Source: Thiosulfatimonas sediminis
GTDB lineage: Bacteria; Pseudomonadota; Gammaproteobacteria; Thiomicrospirales; Thiomicrospiraceae
DNA length: 64,000 bases
Direction of reading: 5' to 3'
NCBI RefSeq assembly: GCF_011398355.1
Contig: NZ_AP021889.1
Coordinates: 1,922,001 to 1,986,000, forward strand
The notes under the pieces: generated by a model
Database searches by the model: none
Told to the model about the DNA's origin: nothing
What the model saw: the letters and a program-made list of their open reading frames with translations, nothing else
Program-made: the position numbers and the translations under genes
Shown: piece after piece, positions 9,926-59,190 of the stretch
How positions within the stretch are numbered: the first letter of the stretch is position 1
Layout: the number at the start of each line of letters is the position of its first letter

Positions 9926-10216
9926 TTAAAGCGTTTCGATCTGTTTTTCAATGACCAGTTGCAGACCGGATATTTCGATGATTTGACGGTTATGATCACC
10001 AAGCCCTCGAATTTCATAACCCGGGGTTTCGGCGATACGACGAAATATCATCAAGCCGCTTTCCGCAGGGCAATGTTCATAAAGGTAGTCCACCACTTTT
10101 TTGGCCACCGAGTCTTTTATTCCAGAAACAAACACATTGGGTTTGGGTTCGACAAACCAGAGTTTCATACGCCCGCGAACCGCAGGCGGTAAATCATTTG
10201 CGAGGACGACGAGCAC
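9926..10216 (-). CDS. cas2: CRISPR-associated endoribonuclease/integrase subunit Cas2 (type I-E)
   Basis: Cas2e, 96 aa, partner of Cas1 in spacer integration. The start of the family is recognisable as LVVLANDLPPAVRGRMKLWF, matching the E. coli pattern of LVVVTENVPPRLRGRL. The GTG at 10216 is chosen because it gives the family length and has GGGAG 6 nt upstream; the open frame extends further but overlaps cas1 out of frame. It overlaps the cas1 3' end by 23 bp, so the two are translationally coupled. The array leader begins directly after its stop. Confidence 0.92.
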   Translation of the reverse strand: MLVVLANDLPPAVRGRMKLWFVEPKPNVFVSGIKDSVAKKVVDYLYEHCPAESGLMIFRRIAETPGYEIRGLGDHNRQIIEISGLQLVIEKQIETL

Positions 10217-11081
10217 GTTTTTCTCCCAAAATAGCTTCAATATCTTTGGCAATGGTTTGCAACAGATCCATTTCAATCACTCGGTCTTTAAAAGCATTGG
10301 CGACTTTATATTTGTTATAGCGCCCACCCATTTGCAAGGTGAGCGAAAAAGCTAAATCAATACAAAGGCGTTCTTTGTATAAATCAGCCAAATCATAAAC
10401 AAAAGGCAAAGGACTGCCAGAGTGAATAAACCCAATATGCGGTGAATAACCCAGTGAATGCACGACTGAACTTAAAATGCCGTAAAGTGCCGCGTTACAG
10501 GAGGTGAGAATTTGGTTGGTCATATCACTGAGTTCAAATTTACCTTGCACAAATTTGCGCCCTTGCCAACCAACGCCATATTCTTGGGCTTTTTCCTCAT
10601 AAATTTGCCGTACCCGATAGCCTTCCATACCCATCATTTCGGCTAATGCTTTCCCTTCCAAATCCGCGCTAGGAAAACGTCGCATAAACATTTTTCTGGC
10701 GATTTCTACGGACTTAATCGGGTCGGCAGACAGCTCTATTTGGTGGCGCAGATTTCGCGTGTCAGAAGATGGCGTTTGTCCGGCGGCATAAAACAATAAG
10801 CTGTCTTCACCCACCCAACAGATGCCACAGTTGGCAGCGGCTGTGACCTTAACCGCCTCATGGGTAATGCTGGTGCCAGGCCCTAATAACAGACAATTGA
10901 GCGTGGCAATGGGTAAACGCACCACATTACCCGTGCTGTCTATCCATTTGACGCTGGCATCGTCAATCTCTAGCCGACCGCGTTCTAGATAAATAAATGG
11001 GTATTTATCTTTGACTTGCGGCAGGCTATCGCGAGTGACTTTGATAAACAGGCGTTTTACCTCCTGTTTCGGCTCAGCCAC
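10194..11081 (-). CDS. cas1: CRISPR-associated integrase Cas1 (type I-E)
   Basis: Cas1e, 295 aa, the metal-dependent integrase that inserts new spacers. Active-site residues can be placed by comparison with E. coli Cas1: Glu153 in GMEGYRVRQ, His220 in IGFIHSGSPLPF and Asp233 in VYDLADLYK. Length and motifs are normal, so adaptation should be intact. It overlaps the cas5e end by 8 bp and cas2 by 23 bp. Confidence 0.96.
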   Translation of the reverse strand: MAEPKQEVKRLFIKVTRDSLPQVKDKYPFIYLERGRLEIDDASVKWIDSTGNVVRLPIATLNCLLLGPGTSITHEAVKVTAAANCGICWVGEDSLLFYAAGQTPSSDTRNLRHQIELSADPIKSVEIARKMFMRRFPSADLEGKALAEMMGMEGYRVRQIYEEKAQEYGVGWQGRKFVQGKFELSDMTNQILTSCNAALYGILSSVVHSLGYSPHIGFIHSGSPLPFVYDLADLYKERLCIDLAFSLTLQMGGRYNKYKVANAFKDRVIEMDLLQTIAKDIEAILGEKRARRPRK

Positions 11082-11805
11082 CTTCGTAATCCTCTTGTGA
11101 ATAGAACAAGGTCACTTGGCGGTCACGGTATTTTTTGTGCTGACCAAATTGAATCGGCACATCATTGAGCGTTAAATGTTCATCGCCCTCCTGTTCGCCT
11201 TGCAACACCTGAAAATCTTCCAACAGTTTTTTACTCACGGCAATCTCAGCGGCTTTGATTTTTAAGGCCGAAAGGTCATTAAAAACACCTTGAAAAACCA
11301 GTTCGGTTGGGATGCAGTTTTTGCGCCCCAAATAGATGTCCCAATTCGGATTTTGCAAGGCTTGCGCAAGGTCATCTGCCAAGTCCGCCGGTACTTGCAA
11401 GGCCACGGCAAAAACCGCGTCTTGCAAATAATAGCGGTAGGTCAACTTTGAACCACCGCCTACGGCTTTTTTACCTTCTGCTGTTTTGGGTATTAATAAA
11501 GTTTGCCAAGGGTCTTGATCGTCATACCCATTTCCCACCGTTTGAAAATCCCGCAAAAGCGGTTGTTTGTCTTGCCTTTGTTGCTTGGCATTGGTTTTGC
11601 GATAGCTAATGACCTGCATATCCAAGGGTGCAAAACGCACCAACAATTCGGATTGCTCACCGCCCGCACCCAAGGCGCTACAGACCAAACCCAACACGCC
11701 GGATTTGGTGGGGAATTTTAGGGTATCACGCCGTCCAAATTTGGAATCCGCACCCCAAGATTGCAGGGGTGCTTCAAACCAAAGCAATAGATAAGGATCA
11801 CTCAT
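11074..11805 (-). CDS. cas5e: Cascade subunit Cas5e (CasD)
   Basis: Cas5e, 243 aa, binds the 5' handle of crRNA and caps the Cas7 backbone of Cascade. The N-terminus LLLWFEAPLQSWGADSKFGRRDT and the following FPTKSGVLGLVCSALG are the typical Cas5e signature. It is slightly longer than E. coli CasD. It starts 3 bp after the cas7e stop and overlaps cas1 by 8 bp. Confidence 0.95.
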   Translation of the reverse strand: MSDPYLLLWFEAPLQSWGADSKFGRRDTLKFPTKSGVLGLVCSALGAGGEQSELLVRFAPLDMQVISYRKTNAKQQRQDKQPLLRDFQTVGNGYDDQDPWQTLLIPKTAEGKKAVGGGSKLTYRYYLQDAVFAVALQVPADLADDLAQALQNPNWDIYLGRKNCIPTELVFQGVFNDLSALKIKAAEIAVSKKLLEDFQVLQGEQEGDEHLTLNDVPIQFGQHKKYRDRQVTLFYSQEDYEGG

Positions 11806-52108: not shown

Positions 52109-52756
52109 ATGAATTTAGATCAAGCCCGTTTTTTTATGGTTGAACAACAAATCCGTCCTTGGGATGTGCTAGACCCTAAAGTTCTTGATCTTTTGATGGA
52201 CACTCCTCGTCATCTATATGTCGCGGAAACCCAACAAAAATTGGCTTACAGCGACATTGAACTTCCAATTGGCGAAGGCCAAGTGATGATGGCGCCCAAA
52301 GTTGAAGGAAAAATACTTCAAGCAATCGATATTCAAGAAAATGACAGTGTATTAGAAATCGGTACTGGCAGCGGCTACTTAACCGCATTAATGGCAACTT
52401 TCGCTAAAGAAGTGACCACCGTCGAAATTTATAAAACATTGCAAGAAGCAGCAAAAGAGCGCCTAAAAGATTTTGACAACATCAACTTCCATATTGGCGA
52501 TGCCAGCGAAGACTGGGCTGATAATCGCGAATACGACGTGATTGTCTTGACTGGCGCAGTCGCACAGATTCCACCGGCGTTTTTGAGCAAATTACGCATT
52601 GGTGGACGCCTAGCGGTCATTCACGGGCAATCACCGGCAATGAGCGCTGATGTGTTAACCCGAATCAGCGAACGTCAGTACCAGACTGAATCCTTGTTTG
52701 AAACCGACATCGCTTACCTAGTCAACAGCGCCAAAAGTTCAACATTTACCTTCTAA
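52109..52756 (+). CDS. Protein-L-isoaspartate O-methyltransferase family protein
   Basis: 215-aa SAM-dependent methyltransferase of the Pcm family. N-terminal MVEQQIRPWDVLDPKVLDLLMDTPRHLYV, the QVMMAPKVEGKILQAI segment and motif I VLEIGTGSGYLTALMA are visible. This is the Pcm-like subfamily often placed near tolC, lacking the usual APxxxPxxL motif. Monocistronic, with its own promoter and terminator. Confidence 0.88.
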   Translation: MNLDQARFFMVEQQIRPWDVLDPKVLDLLMDTPRHLYVAETQQKLAYSDIELPIGEGQVMMAPKVEGKILQAIDIQENDSVLEIGTGSGYLTALMATFAKEVTTVEIYKTLQEAAKERLKDFDNINFHIGDASEDWADNREYDVIVLTGAVAQIPPAFLSKLRIGGRLAVIHGQSPAMSADVLTRISERQYQTESLFETDIAYLVNSAKSSTFTF

Positions 52757-53250: not shown

Positions 53251-54705
53251 ATGGACTTTATCAGCCTCTATCCGACTTGGTACGAACCCACTGTTGGCTC
53301 CGGATGGGTGGTTGCTTTGATTGCAACTTTCCACGTCCTCGCCTCGCACACGTCGGTTGGTGCCGCACTTTTATTTGCTTACCTGTCGCATAAAGCCTAT
53401 CGCGAAGACCGCGATGATCTTCTCGATTTCATCAAAAAGTACGGTCTATTCTTAATGGTATTTACCTATGTTGCCGGTTCGATTACCGGTCCTGGCATCT
53501 GGTACTCCACCACAGTCGCAAGCCCGAACGGCATCGGCGCACTGATTCACTCGTTTGTTTGGAAATGGGCAACCGAATGGGTCTTCTTCGTTATCGAGGT
53601 AGTCGGTGTTTATATGCTGGTATACCTAGTGGGTAAAGTCGATAAAAAAACCCATATGAAAATCTCGGTGATTTTCGGTATGGCGTCTCTGGCGACCATG
53701 GTGATTATCGTCGGTATCCTTTCATTCATGATGCTACCGGGTAAAGAACAGTGGTTTGCTGAAGGTGGTTACCTAAACGGTTTCTACGGTACCAATACCT
53801 TTATCCAAATGGGTATGCGTATGGCGTTTATGTTCACCATGACAGCGGTTGTCGGTGGGATTGTTATCGCGAGCATTAAAGACCCAGCGTTTAAAAAAGA
53901 GATGGCGCGTAAATTGGGCTGGCTGGGGATTATCTCAACCTTAACCGGTGCGGCGATGTTCCAGTGGTACTTAACTTCCGTACCGGATCAAGCACTGCTT
54001 GTTATGGAAAACCGTCTACCGGATTACTTCGGTCCGAGCGTGATGATTGTTCTGGCGGGGACTTTGGCGTACTTCATCATCACCATGCTACGTCCGCAAC
54101 TGGTCGTGCAAGGTTTTGCAGGCGCGATGACCGTTATCATTTTGGTTGCCGGTCTATGGCCTGAAGAAACCGCGCGCGAATCCATGCGTAAGCCTTATGT
54201 TGCCGGACAATACGTCTACTCGAACCAAGTCATCGGTCGCGATGTTCCGGGCATGGACATCAAATCACAACTACCGACCATCGAAAAAGTCGGTATTTTG
54301 AAAGCGCATCCATTTACTCCGGACCATCTGCGTGAAGTAAAACAAAGCAATATGATTCAAGCCGGTGAATTTATCGCCATGACTTATTGCTCGAACTGTC
54401 ACTCACCGAGTAAAACGGGGATCCGTCCGCTGCATCGCTATTTCCCGGAAGGCACTTCGCAAGAGCGTATGGCGCAATATGTTAAGGGGGTTCTAACCAC
54501 CGGTAACATCGCTTATATGCCGAAAATGCCGATGCTGGATTCGGAAGCCGAAGCCCTAGCGGCTTATCTAGTGATGAACAATGACGGTGGCGAGGCGGCA
54601 ACGTCTGCGGCAATTGATATGGAAATTGAACAACGTGAACGCGCTCTGGCCGAGCAAAAAGCCGCTGACAAAGTGGCCAGCGTTGAATTAATGGAGGGCA
54701 AATAA
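53251..54705 (+). CDS. Cytochrome bd-superfamily oxidase-like subunit I with C-terminal haem c
   Basis: 484 aa: eight or so membrane helices, then a periplasmic cytochrome c domain. The first helix has FHVLASH (His28 aligns with the high-spin haem ligand of CydA); Glu109 and Glu116 match the paired Glu of the proton path, though one residue closer. The segment FIQMGMRMAF has Gln where CydA has the low-spin haem His, and the classical GRQPW and quinol loop are missing. RESMRKPY (309-316) is kept in the partner protein. The C-terminal domain has CSNCH (380-384) and Met423 or Met426 as possible axial ligand. This fits the haem c-containing branch of the superfamily, which takes electrons from cytochrome c rather than quinol. 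Confidence 0.82.
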   Translation: MDFISLYPTWYEPTVGSGWVVALIATFHVLASHTSVGAALLFAYLSHKAYREDRDDLLDFIKKYGLFLMVFTYVAGSITGPGIWYSTTVASPNGIGALIHSFVWKWATEWVFFVIEVVGVYMLVYLVGKVDKKTHMKISVIFGMASLATMVIIVGILSFMMLPGKEQWFAEGGYLNGFYGTNTFIQMGMRMAFMFTMTAVVGGIVIASIKDPAFKKEMARKLGWLGIISTLTGAAMFQWYLTSVPDQALLVMENRLPDYFGPSVMIVLAGTLAYFIITMLRPQLVVQGFAGAMTVIILVAGLWPEETARESMRKPYVAGQYVYSNQVIGRDVPGMDIKSQLPTIEKVGILKAHPFTPDHLREVKQSNMIQAGEFIAMTYCSNCHSPSKTGIRPLHRYFPEGTSQERMAQYVKGVLTTGNIAYMPKMPMLDSEAEALAAYLVMNNDGGEAATSAAIDMEIEQRERALAEQKAADKVASVELMEGK

Positions 54706-55955
54706 TGGATGCTCAAAATGTCGCTCAAGTCACTGAGATGATGTATGCCCTGCGTAACCCTGCCGGGCTGCCAACCTACCCGATTATTTTCGTCGGGCTT
54801 AACGTGCTGACCTTTGCACTGCACATTCTATTCGTCCAGCTTTTGCTAGGAACGTCTTTAGTGGCTCTGTATGGCGCTTATACCAATAACCCGCTTTGGC
54901 GTCGTTTAGGTATGGCGATGATTGATGTGGCGAAAGTTTCGGTTTCGGTTGCCATCGTCGTTGGGGTCGCTCCGCTACTGTTCGTACAGGTGGTTTATGA
55001 CCCACACTGGTATACGTCCAACGTACTCTCTGCCGATTGGGTCATCGCCTTTATCTTTATTTTGATTTTGGCTTACTGGGCTATGTACTTGTATTACTTC
55101 CAAAACTACAAGCGCGAAGACAAAACTGCAGAGCCGAAATCGCGCTGGTCGCTGATTGTCAGCTTGGCGCTGATGCTATTGGTCGGTTTCATTATGCACA
55201 GCCTGACATCACAAATTCTGCACCCTGAAATGTGGAAAGAGTGGTACATGCAAAACGGCAAATTGGATTACAGTGGTGACACCTTACACGCATACAATTT
55301 CTGGCGTTATGCCTTCTTTATCTCAATGGCGATTCCGGTTGCCGGTGCAATGATGGTCACCTACCGTCGTTTCAAGATGGTGCGTGAAGATGCCGACATG
55401 CAATACCTAAACTTCGCGGCGGAAGTCGGCAAGAAATGGATTCTGGTTGGTTCGATTATCTCTACCGTACTATACGTTGCTTGGATGATGACCATTCAAG
55501 AAACCGCCGGCGATTTCGCGACTTCTTTCTGGGGCATTATCGGTGGTGTTGCCGTACTGGGTTACGCATTGTGGGCGAAGCTTCGTCTGAATGGTAAATC
55601 AGCAGATATGTGTAGCTATATGGCGTTACCTATGGCATTGGTTATCGGTTTGGTTGTGGCGACTTCTCGTGAAATCCTGCGTTACGATATCTTGAACGGT
55701 TTCTTCGGTTACGATTTCTTCGATTACAAAATCGTCATGGATTGGTACTCGACCGGCCTATTCTTCCTAACCTTCGCGATCGTTGGCGGCGTGGTACTGA
55801 GCTACTTCCTGACCATCGCATGGAAAGCCGGTCAAACCGTCGGCATTTACACCCCGGGGCCCGGCGTGCAAAAACTCGGAACCGTCGCTATTTGGGTGGT
55901 TGCCCTTTGGTTGGTGCAGTTCTTTGTCGTCGGTTTCTACGTATGGGCGCAGTAA
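54705..55955 (+). CDS. Cytochrome bd-superfamily second subunit, paralogue of subunit I
   Basis: 416 aa, about nine helices, no CxxCH. Its start (FVGLNVLTFALHILFVQLLLG) parallels subunit I, with His40 at the haem-ligand position and Gln45 where subunit I has a second His; SREILRYDIL (321-330) parallels the RESMRKPY motif. So both subunits derive from a CydA-like ancestor, as in CydAA'-type enzymes, rather than being a CydA/CydB pair. Start and upstream stop overlap (TAATG). Confidence 0.8.
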   Translation: MDAQNVAQVTEMMYALRNPAGLPTYPIIFVGLNVLTFALHILFVQLLLGTSLVALYGAYTNNPLWRRLGMAMIDVAKVSVSVAIVVGVAPLLFVQVVYDPHWYTSNVLSADWVIAFIFILILAYWAMYLYYFQNYKREDKTAEPKSRWSLIVSLALMLLVGFIMHSLTSQILHPEMWKEWYMQNGKLDYSGDTLHAYNFWRYAFFISMAIPVAGAMMVTYRRFKMVREDADMQYLNFAAEVGKKWILVGSIISTVLYVAWMMTIQETAGDFATSFWGIIGGVAVLGYALWAKLRLNGKSADMCSYMALPMALVIGLVVATSREILRYDILNGFFGYDFFDYKIVMDWYSTGLFFLTFAIVGGVVLSYFLTIAWKAGQTVGIYTPGPGVQKLGTVAIWVVALWLVQFFVVGFYVWAQ

Positions 55956-55966
55956 AGGAGTACCGC

Positions 55967-56353
55967 ATGAAAAAAACATTATTAGTTAGCTTAATCTCTG
56001 CTTCCGCCCTTTTCGGCATGAACGCAGCCAATGCCTCAGGTGCCCTGATTCCGGCAGACGAGTTTGCCAAAGACCCTGCGATTCCGGGCAAAATGCTCGG
56101 CGATAACTGCTCGGCTTGTCACGGAACCCTTGGACGTTTTTACGACGAATCCATGCCGCCACTAGCCGGTATTCCGCGTGATGTATTTATTAAACTGATG
56201 CAGGATTTCAAAAACGAAGTTCGCCCATCTATCGTGATGAACCACGTTGCTAAAGTATTTACCGATGCGGAGATTGAGCGCATGGCCGATTACTTCGCCG
56301 CGCAAGCGGATAAGCCGTGGAAAGATGAAAATGTCCTACAAGGAGCCCAGTAA
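55967..56353 (+). CDS. Periplasmic monohaem cytochrome c
   Basis: 128 aa, signal peptide ending near NASG, one haem site CSACH (48-52) followed by a class I-like fold (MPPLAGIPRDVFIKLMQDFKNEVR, FTDAEIERMADYFAAQ). AAAGGAG precedes the ATG; an upstream open frame to 55742 lies inside the previous gene and is rejected. Located between the oxidase-like subunits and fccB, it is the likely electron shuttle between them (inference). Stop overlaps the fccB start. Confidence 0.87.
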   Translation: MKKTLLVSLISASALFGMNAANASGALIPADEFAKDPAIPGKMLGDNCSACHGTLGRFYDESMPPLAGIPRDVFIKLMQDFKNEVRPSIVMNHVAKVFTDAEIERMADYFAAQADKPWKDENVLQGAQ

Positions 56354-57651
56354 TGAATAACCTATCACGCCGTGAATTAATGAAGCGTTTTGGTGCCGCT
56401 GGTCTGAGCATGGGACTGTTCGGCGCCTCAAAAGAAGCTTGGTCGAAAACCGCACCGCACGTGGTCATCGTCGGTGGCGGTATCGGTGGAGTGTCTGCCG
56501 CTAAGTATCTACGTATCTTAGATAAGAACGTCAAAATCACCATTATCGAGCCGAATTTGGAATACGTTTTCTGTCCGGGTTCCAATGAAGTCCTGAACGA
56601 TTTTGTCTCGATCGAAGATTTGACCGTGAATTATGAAAACATCAAGTCACGCTATGCCGTCAATATCGTCACCGATTTGGCGACCGATATCGACTACAGC
56701 GGTAAGCGCGTCAAAACCAAAGCAAACGGCTACATCCACTACGACAAGTTGATTGTTGCACCGGGGCCTGACTACAAGTTCGGCGACATCGAGGGCTACT
56801 CAAAAGAGTTGGCGCAAGGCGATTTCCCGCACGCTTGGAAAGCCGGTCCACAGACATTGAAGCTACGCGAACAGATTCACAATATGCCCAAAGGTGGTGT
56901 AGTGGCCATTTCGTCGCCGCCAATGCCATACCGCTGCCCGCCGGCACCTTATGAGCGTGCCAGCTTCATTGCCGAATGGTTATCCCACCACAACCCAACC
57001 GCAAAAGTGTTGATTCTGGATTCGAAAAACAGCTTTACCTTCCGAACGCATTACATCGACTACTGGACCAAAAAGCGCGGTTTCGGCACCAAAGACGCGA
57101 TGATCGAATGGGTTCCTGCGGAAAAAGGCGGACGTGTCACACAATTAGACGCGGCCAATAAAACTTTAGTCACCGCGGACGGCGAACGCATTCAAGCGGA
57201 TGTGATCAATATCATCCCCGCACATACGGCTGCGAAATTTACTCATGACACTGGATTGTCTCAAGGAAACGAATGGGTACCGATTGATCCGATGGATTAT
57301 CGCTCGCGCGTCGATCAAGACGTCTACGTTGTCGGCGATGCGACCGAATCCAGCCCGATGGTAAAAACCGGCTATCTGGCCTCTAACCACTCAAAAGCGG
57401 TGGCGCAATCCATCGTTAATTCGTTTGTCGGCAAACCGCCGGTGCAACCCTTATACACCAATAATTGTGTTGCTCTGGCAGGCGAAGATTACGGTATGAC
57501 CATTACCGACACCTTCCGCGTACAGAACGGCAAAATCGTCAAGCAGTACGGTCACCAGTCAACCGAACTTGATAATGATGCATTGCATCACATCCGAGCG
57601 TCGCTGGCGATGAACTGGCAGCGCGCTTTCCGCCGCGACATTTTTGAATAA
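56353..57651 (+). CDS. fccB: Flavocytochrome c sulfide dehydrogenase, flavoprotein subunit
   Basis: 432 aa; oxidises sulfide to sulfur/polysulfide in the periplasm. A Tat signal (SRRELMKRFGAAGLSMGL) is followed by an FAD-binding VVIVGGGIGGVSAAKYL. Cys74 in FCPGSNEVL aligns with the cysteine that binds FAD covalently, and Cys195 (YRCPPAPYERAS) with Cys372 (TNNCVALAG) match the redox-active pair. YVVGDATES is the second FAD motif. The neighbouring dihaem subunit follows 19 bp later. Confidence 0.92.
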   Translation: MNNLSRRELMKRFGAAGLSMGLFGASKEAWSKTAPHVVIVGGGIGGVSAAKYLRILDKNVKITIIEPNLEYVFCPGSNEVLNDFVSIEDLTVNYENIKSRYAVNIVTDLATDIDYSGKRVKTKANGYIHYDKLIVAPGPDYKFGDIEGYSKELAQGDFPHAWKAGPQTLKLREQIHNMPKGGVVAISSPPMPYRCPPAPYERASFIAEWLSHHNPTAKVLILDSKNSFTFRTHYIDYWTKKRGFGTKDAMIEWVPAEKGGRVTQLDAANKTLVTADGERIQADVINIIPAHTAAKFTHDTGLSQGNEWVPIDPMDYRSRVDQDVYVVGDATESSPMVKTGYLASNHSKAVAQSIVNSFVGKPPVQPLYTNNCVALAGEDYGMTITDTFRVQNGKIVKQYGHQSTELDNDALHHIRASLAMNWQRAFRRDIFE

Positions 57652-57670
57652 TTAAGACCGGAGACGATTG

Positions 57671-58384
57671 ATGAAATTAACGAAATTACTTATCGCGACT
57701 GGCTTAAGCGTCTTAAGCGCGAACAGCGTCATGGCGAGCAACGTGCCGCATGCCGAGCCTTGGACGGCCAAAGAGTGGCTAGAAACCAAAGCCGCTATGC
57801 CGCAAGGCGATATTGACAAAGGGAAACTACTCGCTCAGGAAGGTTACTGCTACAGCTGTCATGGTGTCGGCGGTAACAACCCGACACAATCAACCCCGAG
57901 CCTCGCCGGACAAAATGCGACCTACACCTATAAGATGTTACTCGACTACAAGTCCGGGCGTTTTTATGTCGACCATAAATCGCACGTTATGGTAAATGTC
58001 ATGCAGTATTACAACGAGCAGCAGATGGCCGATATGGCCGCCTATTTCGCCGCACAACCGCTGCCTTATGCCGAATATGTCGAGAAAGATGTCGACGTCG
58101 ATCCGGCAATTGTGCGTTTGGTTGCCAAGGGCGACACCTCGCGCATGATTGTGCCTTGCGCCTCTTGTCACGGTGCCCACGGTGAAGGCGGCATGAACGA
58201 GACTCCGGCGCTGACCGGCCTCAGCCCACGCATGTTTATTCGTCAAATGCAGAAATACAAGGACGGTGAACGCCATAACGATGTGAATGCCGGCATGGCG
58301 CAATTCACTAAGGAGCTAACCGATGATGAGATTAAAGCGCTTGCCGATTACTATGCGCAGCTCAAACCAAGAGGAGTGAAATAA
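57671..58384 (+). CDS. fccA: Flavocytochrome c sulfide dehydrogenase, dihaem cytochrome subunit
   Basis: 237 aa, signal peptide ending near VMAS. Two haem c sites, CYSCH (60-64) and CASCH (163-167), in two related class I domains (QMADMAAYFAAQP and EIKALADYYAQLKP end each). It takes electrons from FccB. The ATG at 57671 has GGAG upstream; a TTG three bases earlier is less likely. Order fccB-fccA is the reverse of Allochromatium. Stop overlaps the next start. Confidence 0.9.
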   Translation: MKLTKLLIATGLSVLSANSVMASNVPHAEPWTAKEWLETKAAMPQGDIDKGKLLAQEGYCYSCHGVGGNNPTQSTPSLAGQNATYTYKMLLDYKSGRFYVDHKSHVMVNVMQYYNEQQMADMAAYFAAQPLPYAEYVEKDVDVDPAIVRLVAKGDTSRMIVPCASCHGAHGEGGMNETPALTGLSPRMFIRQMQKYKDGERHNDVNAGMAQFTKELTDDEIKALADYYAQLKPRGVK

Positions 58385-58479
58385 TGAACGGTAAACAAGC
58401 AATTCTTTGGGGACTGATTCTCACATTTGGTTCAATTGCCATCATGTGGTTACTCAGCATGGTTACCGTGGTCAGCTAA
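58384..58479 (+). CDS. 31-residue single-helix membrane peptide, CydX-like by position
   Basis: The ATG overlaps the fccA stop (TAATG), and the 31-residue product is almost entirely one helix: MNGKQAILWGLILTFGSIAI, then MWLLSMVTVVS. Canonical bd oxidases need a single-helix small subunit (CydX/CydH) of this size, so this may be the equivalent for the bd-like complex encoded upstream. Sequence similarity to CydX is not evident. Confidence 0.7.
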   Translation: MNGKQAILWGLILTFGSIAIMWLLSMVTVVS

Positions 58480-58776: not shown

Positions 58777-59190
58777 TTACGAATGCGGATTAAACCTTTT
58801 TAACTCAAATACACCCTGAGTGGCTTCAATCTCATCAAAATGATTGTTTCGCCACACCATCAACATCCAACTCAAGATGACAAAAACAGCGGCAAGATAC
58901 ATAAAAAACATAATTGCTTGACTACTTAAACCGCTGATGCTCGATAAATAAAACGGCACTATCATCATTAATAAACTGCTAAAACTGATAAAAACCTTAA
59001 AAGGCGCACTACCTTCAATCAAAATTCCGGTATAAGTCATAGCAATAACCGCAACCATCATGCAAATCGGCACTAATTGAATAAAGTGTGCTAAAACGTC
59101 TTTCGGCAAGCTGCTTCCCATCACAAGATAGAACAAAAAACTGATGCCAATCAGGAGGCTTCCAAATGAAATTCGACAAGGCTGCATCAT
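58777..59190 (-). CDS. Small four-helix membrane protein
   Basis: 137 aa with four hydrophobic helices (about residues 8-25, 38-55, 65-85, 92-112) and a short charged C-terminus. No family is recognised. It is monocistronic, convergent to the sulfide oxidation operon and has a strong terminator. Confidence 0.6.
   Translation of the reverse strand: MMQPCRISFGSLLIGISFLFYLVMGSSLPKDVLAHFIQLVPICMMVAVIAMTYTGILIEGSAPFKVFISFSSLLMMIVPFYLSSISGLSSQAIMFFMYLAAVFVILSWMLMVWRNNHFDEIEATQGVFELKRFNPHS

Follow-up and report, generated by a model that had tools for sequence, protein, structure and literature searches.

Genes for a cytochrome bd-like membrane protein pair and for flavocytochrome c sulfide dehydrogenase form a conserved unit in Thiosulfatimonas sediminis and other sulfur bacteria

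Introduction

Besides the quinol oxidases CydAB, the bd superfamily includes the OR-N type CydAA', which consists of two CydA-like subunits, is thought to use cytochrome c and not quinol, and has a function that is called unconfirmed in two papers (PMC10839748, PMC12342949). The genes of CydAA' are reported near those of nitrite oxidoreductase, complex III or alternative complex III (PMC12342949, PMC6606698), and bd-like proteins encoded beside nitrite oxidoreductase genes have been proposed to act as an oxidase or as an anchor (PMC6606698). On the side of sulfide oxidation, flavocytochrome c sulfide dehydrogenase (FCSD) has a cytochrome subunit, FccA, which is known to be monohaem in two enzymes, those of Thiobacillus sp. 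W5 and Ectothiorhodospira vacuolata; the works on them cited in PMC12010331 describe both as membrane-bound in their titles. This report deals with a six-gene unit (positions 53251-58479) of a 64,000-nucleotide stretch of the Thiosulfatimonas sediminis genome, hereafter the window, in which genes for two CydA-like membrane proteins, designated A and B, precede the genes of a sulfide dehydrogenase and of a dihaem cytochrome.

The original prediction, made from the letters of the window, proposed that this unit encodes a direct route from sulfide to O2 that bypasses quinone. This overall reading is partly supported: the observation of the gene unit is sound and general, and the mechanism is plausible on sequence grounds. 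The A-B/fcc association points to a likely partner that would be dedicated to taking the electrons of sulfide dehydrogenase in many sulfur bacteria. It also offers a natural donor for a cytochrome c-linked branch of the bd superfamily, the supposed oxidase activity of which becomes testable with a known substrate.

Organization of the six-gene unit

The genome that contains the window is a single contig of 2.72 Mb. The unit comprises the following genes, with protein lengths in amino acids (aa).

53251-54705, + strand: A, CydA-like membrane subunit with a C-terminal haem c domain (484 aa; CSNCH at 380-384, Met423)
54705-55955, + strand: B (or A'), second CydA-like subunit, homologous to A and without haem c (416 aa; no CXXCH)
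55967-56353, + strand: FccA, monohaem cytochrome subunit of sulfide dehydrogenase (128 aa; CSACH; best PDB match to the FCSD cytochrome subunit)
56353-57651, + strand: fccB, subunit of FCSD carrying flavin adenine dinucleotide (FAD) (432 aa; matches to PF21706, PF09242 and 1fcd)
57671-58384, + strand: cytochrome c4-like dihaem protein, likely a carrier (237 aa; CYSCH and CASCH; profile match to cytochrome c4)
58384-58479, + strand: peptide with one hydrophobic stretch (31 aa; 3' of the dihaem gene in 19 of the 60 loci described below)

The six frames are tightly packed, as had been noted, with junctions of -1, 11, -1, 19 and -1 bases. Three of the five junctions overlap by one base each, in line with the claim that most stop and start codons do. 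Because of this tight spacing, the six genes are likely to form one transcript. A purine-rich stretch precedes the start of each gene; promoter-like sites were fewer than in shuffled sequence, and terminator-like sites were at most 1 standard deviation above shuffles. The ratio of non-synonymous to synonymous substitution rates (dN/dS) against the related locus L007 is low (0.013-0.087 across the six genes, with dS above 1 and therefore saturated for all except the peptide), so the six frames behave as genes.

Conservation of the linkage between A-B and fcc

A genome scan probed with six peptides of the window's own A, which favours near relatives, gave 60 loci carrying A, with 55-97% identity in the best segment; the closest named relative in this search is Thiomicrorhabdus marina (97% in A). 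In 54 of these loci, fccB lies on the same strand as A and at most 2.1 kb from it, and in the six others (L015, L035, L047, L049, L056 and L058) the contig continues for only 0-1741 bases past A. Related genomes do keep these genes together, and a linkage of A and fccB by chance is ruled out by these counts. One locus, L042, has a further fccB copy elsewhere, in addition to the near one at 9957-11294. According to the record names, A occurs in Thiomicrorhabdus, Thiomicrospira, Hydrogenovibrio, Sulfurivirga, Halothiobacillus, Guyparkeria, Thioalkalivibrio, Thiothrix, Marinobacterium, Thiomonas, Thiobacillus, Hydrogenophilus, Sideroxydans, Rubrivivax, Roseospira and others, which we take to belong to the Gamma-, Beta- and Alphaproteobacteria. 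All the loci that have the 31-residue peptide, a gene already pointed out in the original prediction, belong to the Thiomicrorhabdus-Thiomicrospira-Hydrogenovibrio group.

The usual order is A-B-FccA-FccB-c4, and it is changed in seven loci: six display the order FccA-FccB-A-B-c4 (L031, L043, L044, L051, L052 and L054), and L040 shows FccA-FccB-A before being cut early in B. The content of the fccB slot has changed as well. On the tree of A, built by a quick method and containing long branches, the A proteins of the Thiomicrorhabdus group form one clade of 21 rows (support 100). The 21 FccB of the same group (L066, in which A is cut, replacing L015, which has no FccB) require four changes on the FccB tree, at least three of which are forced by well-supported branches, and the FccB of the window is placed beside that of Sulfurivirga (support 85). 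The operon FccB fall on one branch (support 99), which includes the further copy of L042 and excludes the four other FccB of the window's genome. The trees therefore indicate that FccB has been exchanged between lineages within the operon slot, as far as sampled for FccB of the same branch. Since FccB was exchanged in its slot and gene order was changed, an explanation of the linkage by common descent alone is weakened. All the sampled loci may nonetheless stem from one first joining of A-B and fcc.

In Thiomicrorhabdus heinhorstiae (L009, 2996-11439), the A-B part is present twice, flanking the fcc genes in tandem. Both A copies score 980 bits against that of the window, and the contig stops within the second B.

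A and B as members of the bd superfamily

Kinship of the membrane subunits with cytochrome bd appears at the level of profiles and folds. No curated family scored above its cut-off for A or B, and a search of the PDB with the single sequence of either protein gave no match; a PDB search with profiles led, for A, to cytochrome c domains and one chance match, and for B to nothing credible. The family alignments, with 58 proteins for A and 57 for B, establish that the two are homologous (hhalign E 1.3e-7). Structures were predicted for A, with a predicted local distance difference test (pLDDT) of 73.7 and a predicted template modelling score (pTM) of 0.60, and for B (pLDDT 87.8, pTM 0.86). When these models were compared with the PDB by Foldseek, ranks 1-10 for A (best E 2.4e-4; template modelling score by query length 0.37-0.50) and ranks 1-13 for B (best E 1.2e-5) were all chains of bd oxidases, with four matches below E 0.001 for A and three for B. 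According to both models, A and B have the fold of a cytochrome bd subunit, and their kinship with the bd superfamily holds.

A direct comparison with CydA agrees with this placement. Local hhalign of A and five distant relatives against 17 trimmed CydA sequences gave E 5e-7, and the match of B to the CydA profile was weak (E 0.024); aligned globally, the profiles of A and B gave no match to CydA. At an E limit of 10, PF01654 matches 44 of the 58 A proteins (best E 1.2e-5), the A of the window not being among them, and for B it is not among the best 25 of 34 families listed. The proposal of two homologous bd-superfamily subunits is therefore upheld, with the weaker CydA match on the side of B.

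In the model of A, successive long helices are separated by at most about 21 residues (before the C-terminal domain), and in that of B by at most 17, so that as modelled both proteins lack the long quinol loop seen in ordinary cytochrome bd. An ordinary quinol-type bd oxidase is ruled out by this absent loop together with the added haem c. As no PF01654 match was found in the window's genome, this genome has no ordinary cytochrome bd.

Residue counts were made on 68 A proteins, including 10 distant relatives, and on 66 B proteins. Invariant in all A are His28, His33, Glu109, Arg190, Glu310, Arg313, Pro315 and Met423. The haem c motif CXXCH (C380, C383, H384), found as CSNCH in the window as first described, is likewise present in 68/68 together with Met423, and His100 is conserved in 65/68. 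In B, His40, Arg201 and Arg326 are kept in 66/66 and Glu323 in 63/66. In the hhalign alignment, His28 of A falls on the His that binds haem in helix 1 of CydA, and Glu116 on a Glu conserved in CydA. Furthermore, Glu310-x-x-Arg-Lys-Pro of A resembles E-x-x-R-Q-P-W of CydA, a motif match by eye that is not in the alignment. The high-spin haem ligands of CydA are His19 and Glu445. The low-spin haem His of CydA aligns with Phe193 of A, invariant in 58 rows, and no conserved His was found in A at this aligned place. A reading by eye that placed an Arg there was dropped, as the alignment of A with CydA does not bear it out.

Globally, A-B resembles CydAB in fold, in the aligned helix-1 His and one aligned acidic residue, and in the Glu310 motif. 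It differs from CydAB in that its models have no quinol loop, in that A has no conserved His at the low-spin ligand place, in the haem c domain added to A and in its partner, which is a second CydA-like protein. A-B resembles the OR-N CydAA' of Nitrospira and Nitrospinota in having two CydA-like subunits and no quinol site, which is the criterion given in PMC10839748; this likeness is judged by described features, the tree containing no OR-N reference sequence. Unlike CydAA', which is reported near other complexes, A-B is encoded near sulfide dehydrogenase. The later accounts of the OR-N type reportedly follow Murali et al. 2021. Among the papers listed in searches of the open literature, none was seen to describe the A-B/fcc link; subscription papers, above all Murali et al. 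2021, could mention it.

These residues bear on whether A-B is an oxidase at all. A-B could instead serve as a membrane dock and electron conduit for FccAB, the electrons being passed elsewhere. Such a role has been proposed for certain Nitrospira bd-like proteins that are encoded next to nitrite oxidoreductase (PMC6606698), and the two monohaem FCSDs titled membrane-bound (references in PMC12010331) would fit with it. However, all 68 A proteins keep His28, the counterpart in the alignment of the CydA haem His of helix 1, and Glu310, related by its motif alone to a haem ligand of CydA; this points to a working haem site, which makes a mere dock improbable.

Sulfide dehydrogenase subunits and the c4-like cytochrome

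The identity given to fccB is confirmed by both FCSD Pfam domains (PF21706, E 1.5e-37; PF09242, E 2.8e-9) and by the match to 1fcd (E 9.5e-89). Its redox pair Cys195 and Cys372 and its active-site Glu201 are present in 55/55 rows. The FAD-linking position 74 is a Cys in the window and in 28/55 rows in all, the others having Pro (24) or Gly (3). The FccB devoid of this Cys come from some of the loci L027-L052, L054, L057, L064 and L065, and none of these FccB belongs to the Thiomicrorhabdus or Sulfurivirga groups.

The labels of the two cytochromes change relative to the original prediction, which had taken the dihaem gene as fccA and had called the other simply a monohaem cytochrome c. The latter does carry one haem c motif, and its best PDB match is the FCSD haem subunit, both as a single sequence (E 2.3e-14) and as a profile of 23 rows (E 2.1e-29, versus 2e-23 for cytochrome c4). 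The dihaem protein, as a profile of 21 rows, matches cytochrome c4 (E 3.3e-38) far better than the FCSD haem subunit (E 3.9e-17). Moreover, the genome's own dihaem FccA is nearer to the monohaem gene than to the c4-like gene in 45/46 rows. Because of its best match to the FCSD haem subunit, its place directly 5' of fccB and this nearness, the monohaem gene is assigned as FccA from sequence comparison. The dihaem gene as FccA was rejected on account of its better c4 match and its greater distance from the genome's dihaem FccA. It is best described as cytochrome c4-like, with two CXXCH motifs and c4 as best profile match, and its role is likely that of a carrier.

Like the monohaem enzymes of Thiobacillus sp. 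W5 and E. vacuolata, the unit encodes an FAD subunit with the catalytic Cys pair and Glu and a monohaem cytochrome. The subunits of the W5 enzyme are reportedly of about 40 and 11 kDa. Unlike known FccAB, the unit joins fcc with an oxidase-like membrane pair, and the FAD-linking Cys is missing in 27/55 operon FccB. The genome of the window contains four further FCSD-type genes. Three of them immediately follow a gene for a cytochrome with one or two haems, and the fourth comes after a frame of 337 residues that has a single CXXCH. Three fccB copies are clustered (L113, 2919-8838); a separate cytochrome gene accompanies each of them, and one such pair is on the opposite strand.

A-B pairs without fcc

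A is present in 42/62 genomes of the family, and in 37/50 among good genomes. Five family genomes (L115-L119) carry a second A copy (50-53% identity) with its B. A monohaem cytochrome gene adjoins four of these five second copies, and no fccB was found within the 9-12.5 kb read beside them. Judged by eye, the neighbouring genes encode a sensor kinase and a response regulator in some cases, and in others a metal GTPase together with a Fur-type regulator. Relatives of A are also found on plasmids of Methylosinus (47%), Thermus (33%) and Agrobacterium (29%); up to 7 kb away, on those sides that were covered, no fcc is present. The A-B genes of Methylosinus adjoin methanobactin and iron-uptake genes, and those of Methylosinus and Agrobacterium have genes annotated as ATP-binding (kinase-like) and as response regulator nearby. 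In the soil strain of Agrobacterium (L080, 7010-11554), the plasmid that carries A-B with these regulatory genes is typed as conjugative. Several of the fcc-less pairs (L115-L119; L078, 7001-10050; L079, 6235-8801) stand beside metal GTPase, Fur-type, methanobactin or metal-transport genes, and such pairs may be a copper-free oxidase for metal shortage.

Among 398 genomes drawn from the phylum, nine had a profile match, which in three (that of the window included) extended beyond the haem c domain. On the A tree, 58 fcc-side A are on one side of a branch (support 98) and 10 others on the opposite side; five of the 58 (L015, L035, L047, L049 and L058) come from contigs ending before fccB, and three of these (L047, L049 and L058) have an FccA-like frame at the contig end. 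Because more distant A-B pairs exist without fcc, A-B appears to be a separable, cytochrome c-linked module of OR-N-like type. To account for the sampled tree, a single recruitment of A-B to sulfide dehydrogenase would suffice.

These pairs bring in another explanation, in which FccAB and c4 feed the cytochrome c pool and a haem-copper oxidase, and A-B works independently of them as a cytochrome c oxidase that tolerates sulfide and answers to the same signal. The existence of relatives without fcc, the monohaem cytochrome adjoining 4/5 second copies and the COX1-family oxidase gene of the genome (one such gene) all speak for it. However, fcc is kept with this A clade in all 54 judgeable loci of the 60 despite reordering and FccB exchange, and a link due to co-regulation alone would be lost more often. 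This explanation is thus rather unlikely, although it is the most serious of the rivals.

A putative route from sulfide to oxygen

On balance, we lean slightly towards the reading that the six-gene unit encodes a sulfide-to-O2 electron route, in which the electron steps, O2 as acceptor, a physical complex, and the number and type of haems are inferred. FccB, with its FAD, would draw two electrons from sulfide and pass them to the monohaem FccA, from which the dihaem cytochrome c4 would shuttle them to the C-terminal haem c domain of A. This haem c would in turn deliver them to a haem site within the membrane domain of A, at which O2 would be reduced. B would be a structural, perhaps haem-bearing partner of A, and the small peptide could be an accessory subunit comparable to CydX of cytochrome bd. 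Such a route would need no quinone, since A and B appear to lack the long quinol loop known from ordinary cytochrome bd. According to PMC4815019, cytochrome bd supports sulfide-resistant respiration, which would give a reason for pairing a bd-type oxidase with a sulfide dehydrogenase.

In favour of this route are the linkage in 54/60 loci, the rest being cut by contig ends, the two gene orders, the exchange of FccB in its slot, the branch shared by the operon FccB, and the CXXCH and Met present in 68/68 A. Also in its favour, FccA and FccB distances correlate after correction for A and B (partial r 0.82; calculated on the 43 rows, the window included, that have all five proteins; 999 permutations; p 0.001 for this correlation and for each of those with c4; related rows being non-independent). 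Several points weigh against it. The confidence of the model of A is only middling. The fcc-less pairs (L078-L080, L115-L119) indicate that A-B needs no FccAB, and FccAB could feed the genome's COX1-family oxidase via cytochrome c4; indeed, a solved c4 sequence shares the PDB entry 8smr with cbb3 oxidase chains, whereas the dihaem gene here is in a unit with a bd-like pair. Distances of c4 also track those of FccA (partial r 0.59) and FccB (0.53), so that the FccA-FccB tie seems stronger than the ties to c4 without being exclusive. Finally, the conserved and unexplained His33 and His100 of A might bind a further haem, perhaps a low-spin one.

The acceptor might also be other than respiratory O2. 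A-B could reduce, for example, nitric oxide with electrons from sulfide, or remove O2 merely for protection. A distant fcc-less relative (L076) stands, as judged by eye, beside a frame for a NorR-like sigma-54 activator, but Hydrogenovibrio, a near kin of the host, is described in PMC5733100 as needing O2 for sulfur oxidation, and another acceptor seems highly improbable.

If the sulfide-to-O2 route is true, the O2 and the energy yield of sulfide oxidation would have to be counted differently than with haem-copper oxidases. It is conceivable, though doubtful, that A, B, FccA, FccB, c4 and the peptide form one stable membrane sulfide:O2 oxidoreductase requiring no quinone, free cytochrome pool or copper. 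Such a complex, if real, would account for the monohaem sulfide dehydrogenases found membrane-bound.

Flanking frames

The nearest gene-like frame upstream of the unit, on the same strand, ends at 52756, 494 bases off, and the next one downstream (58777-59190) is on the opposite strand.

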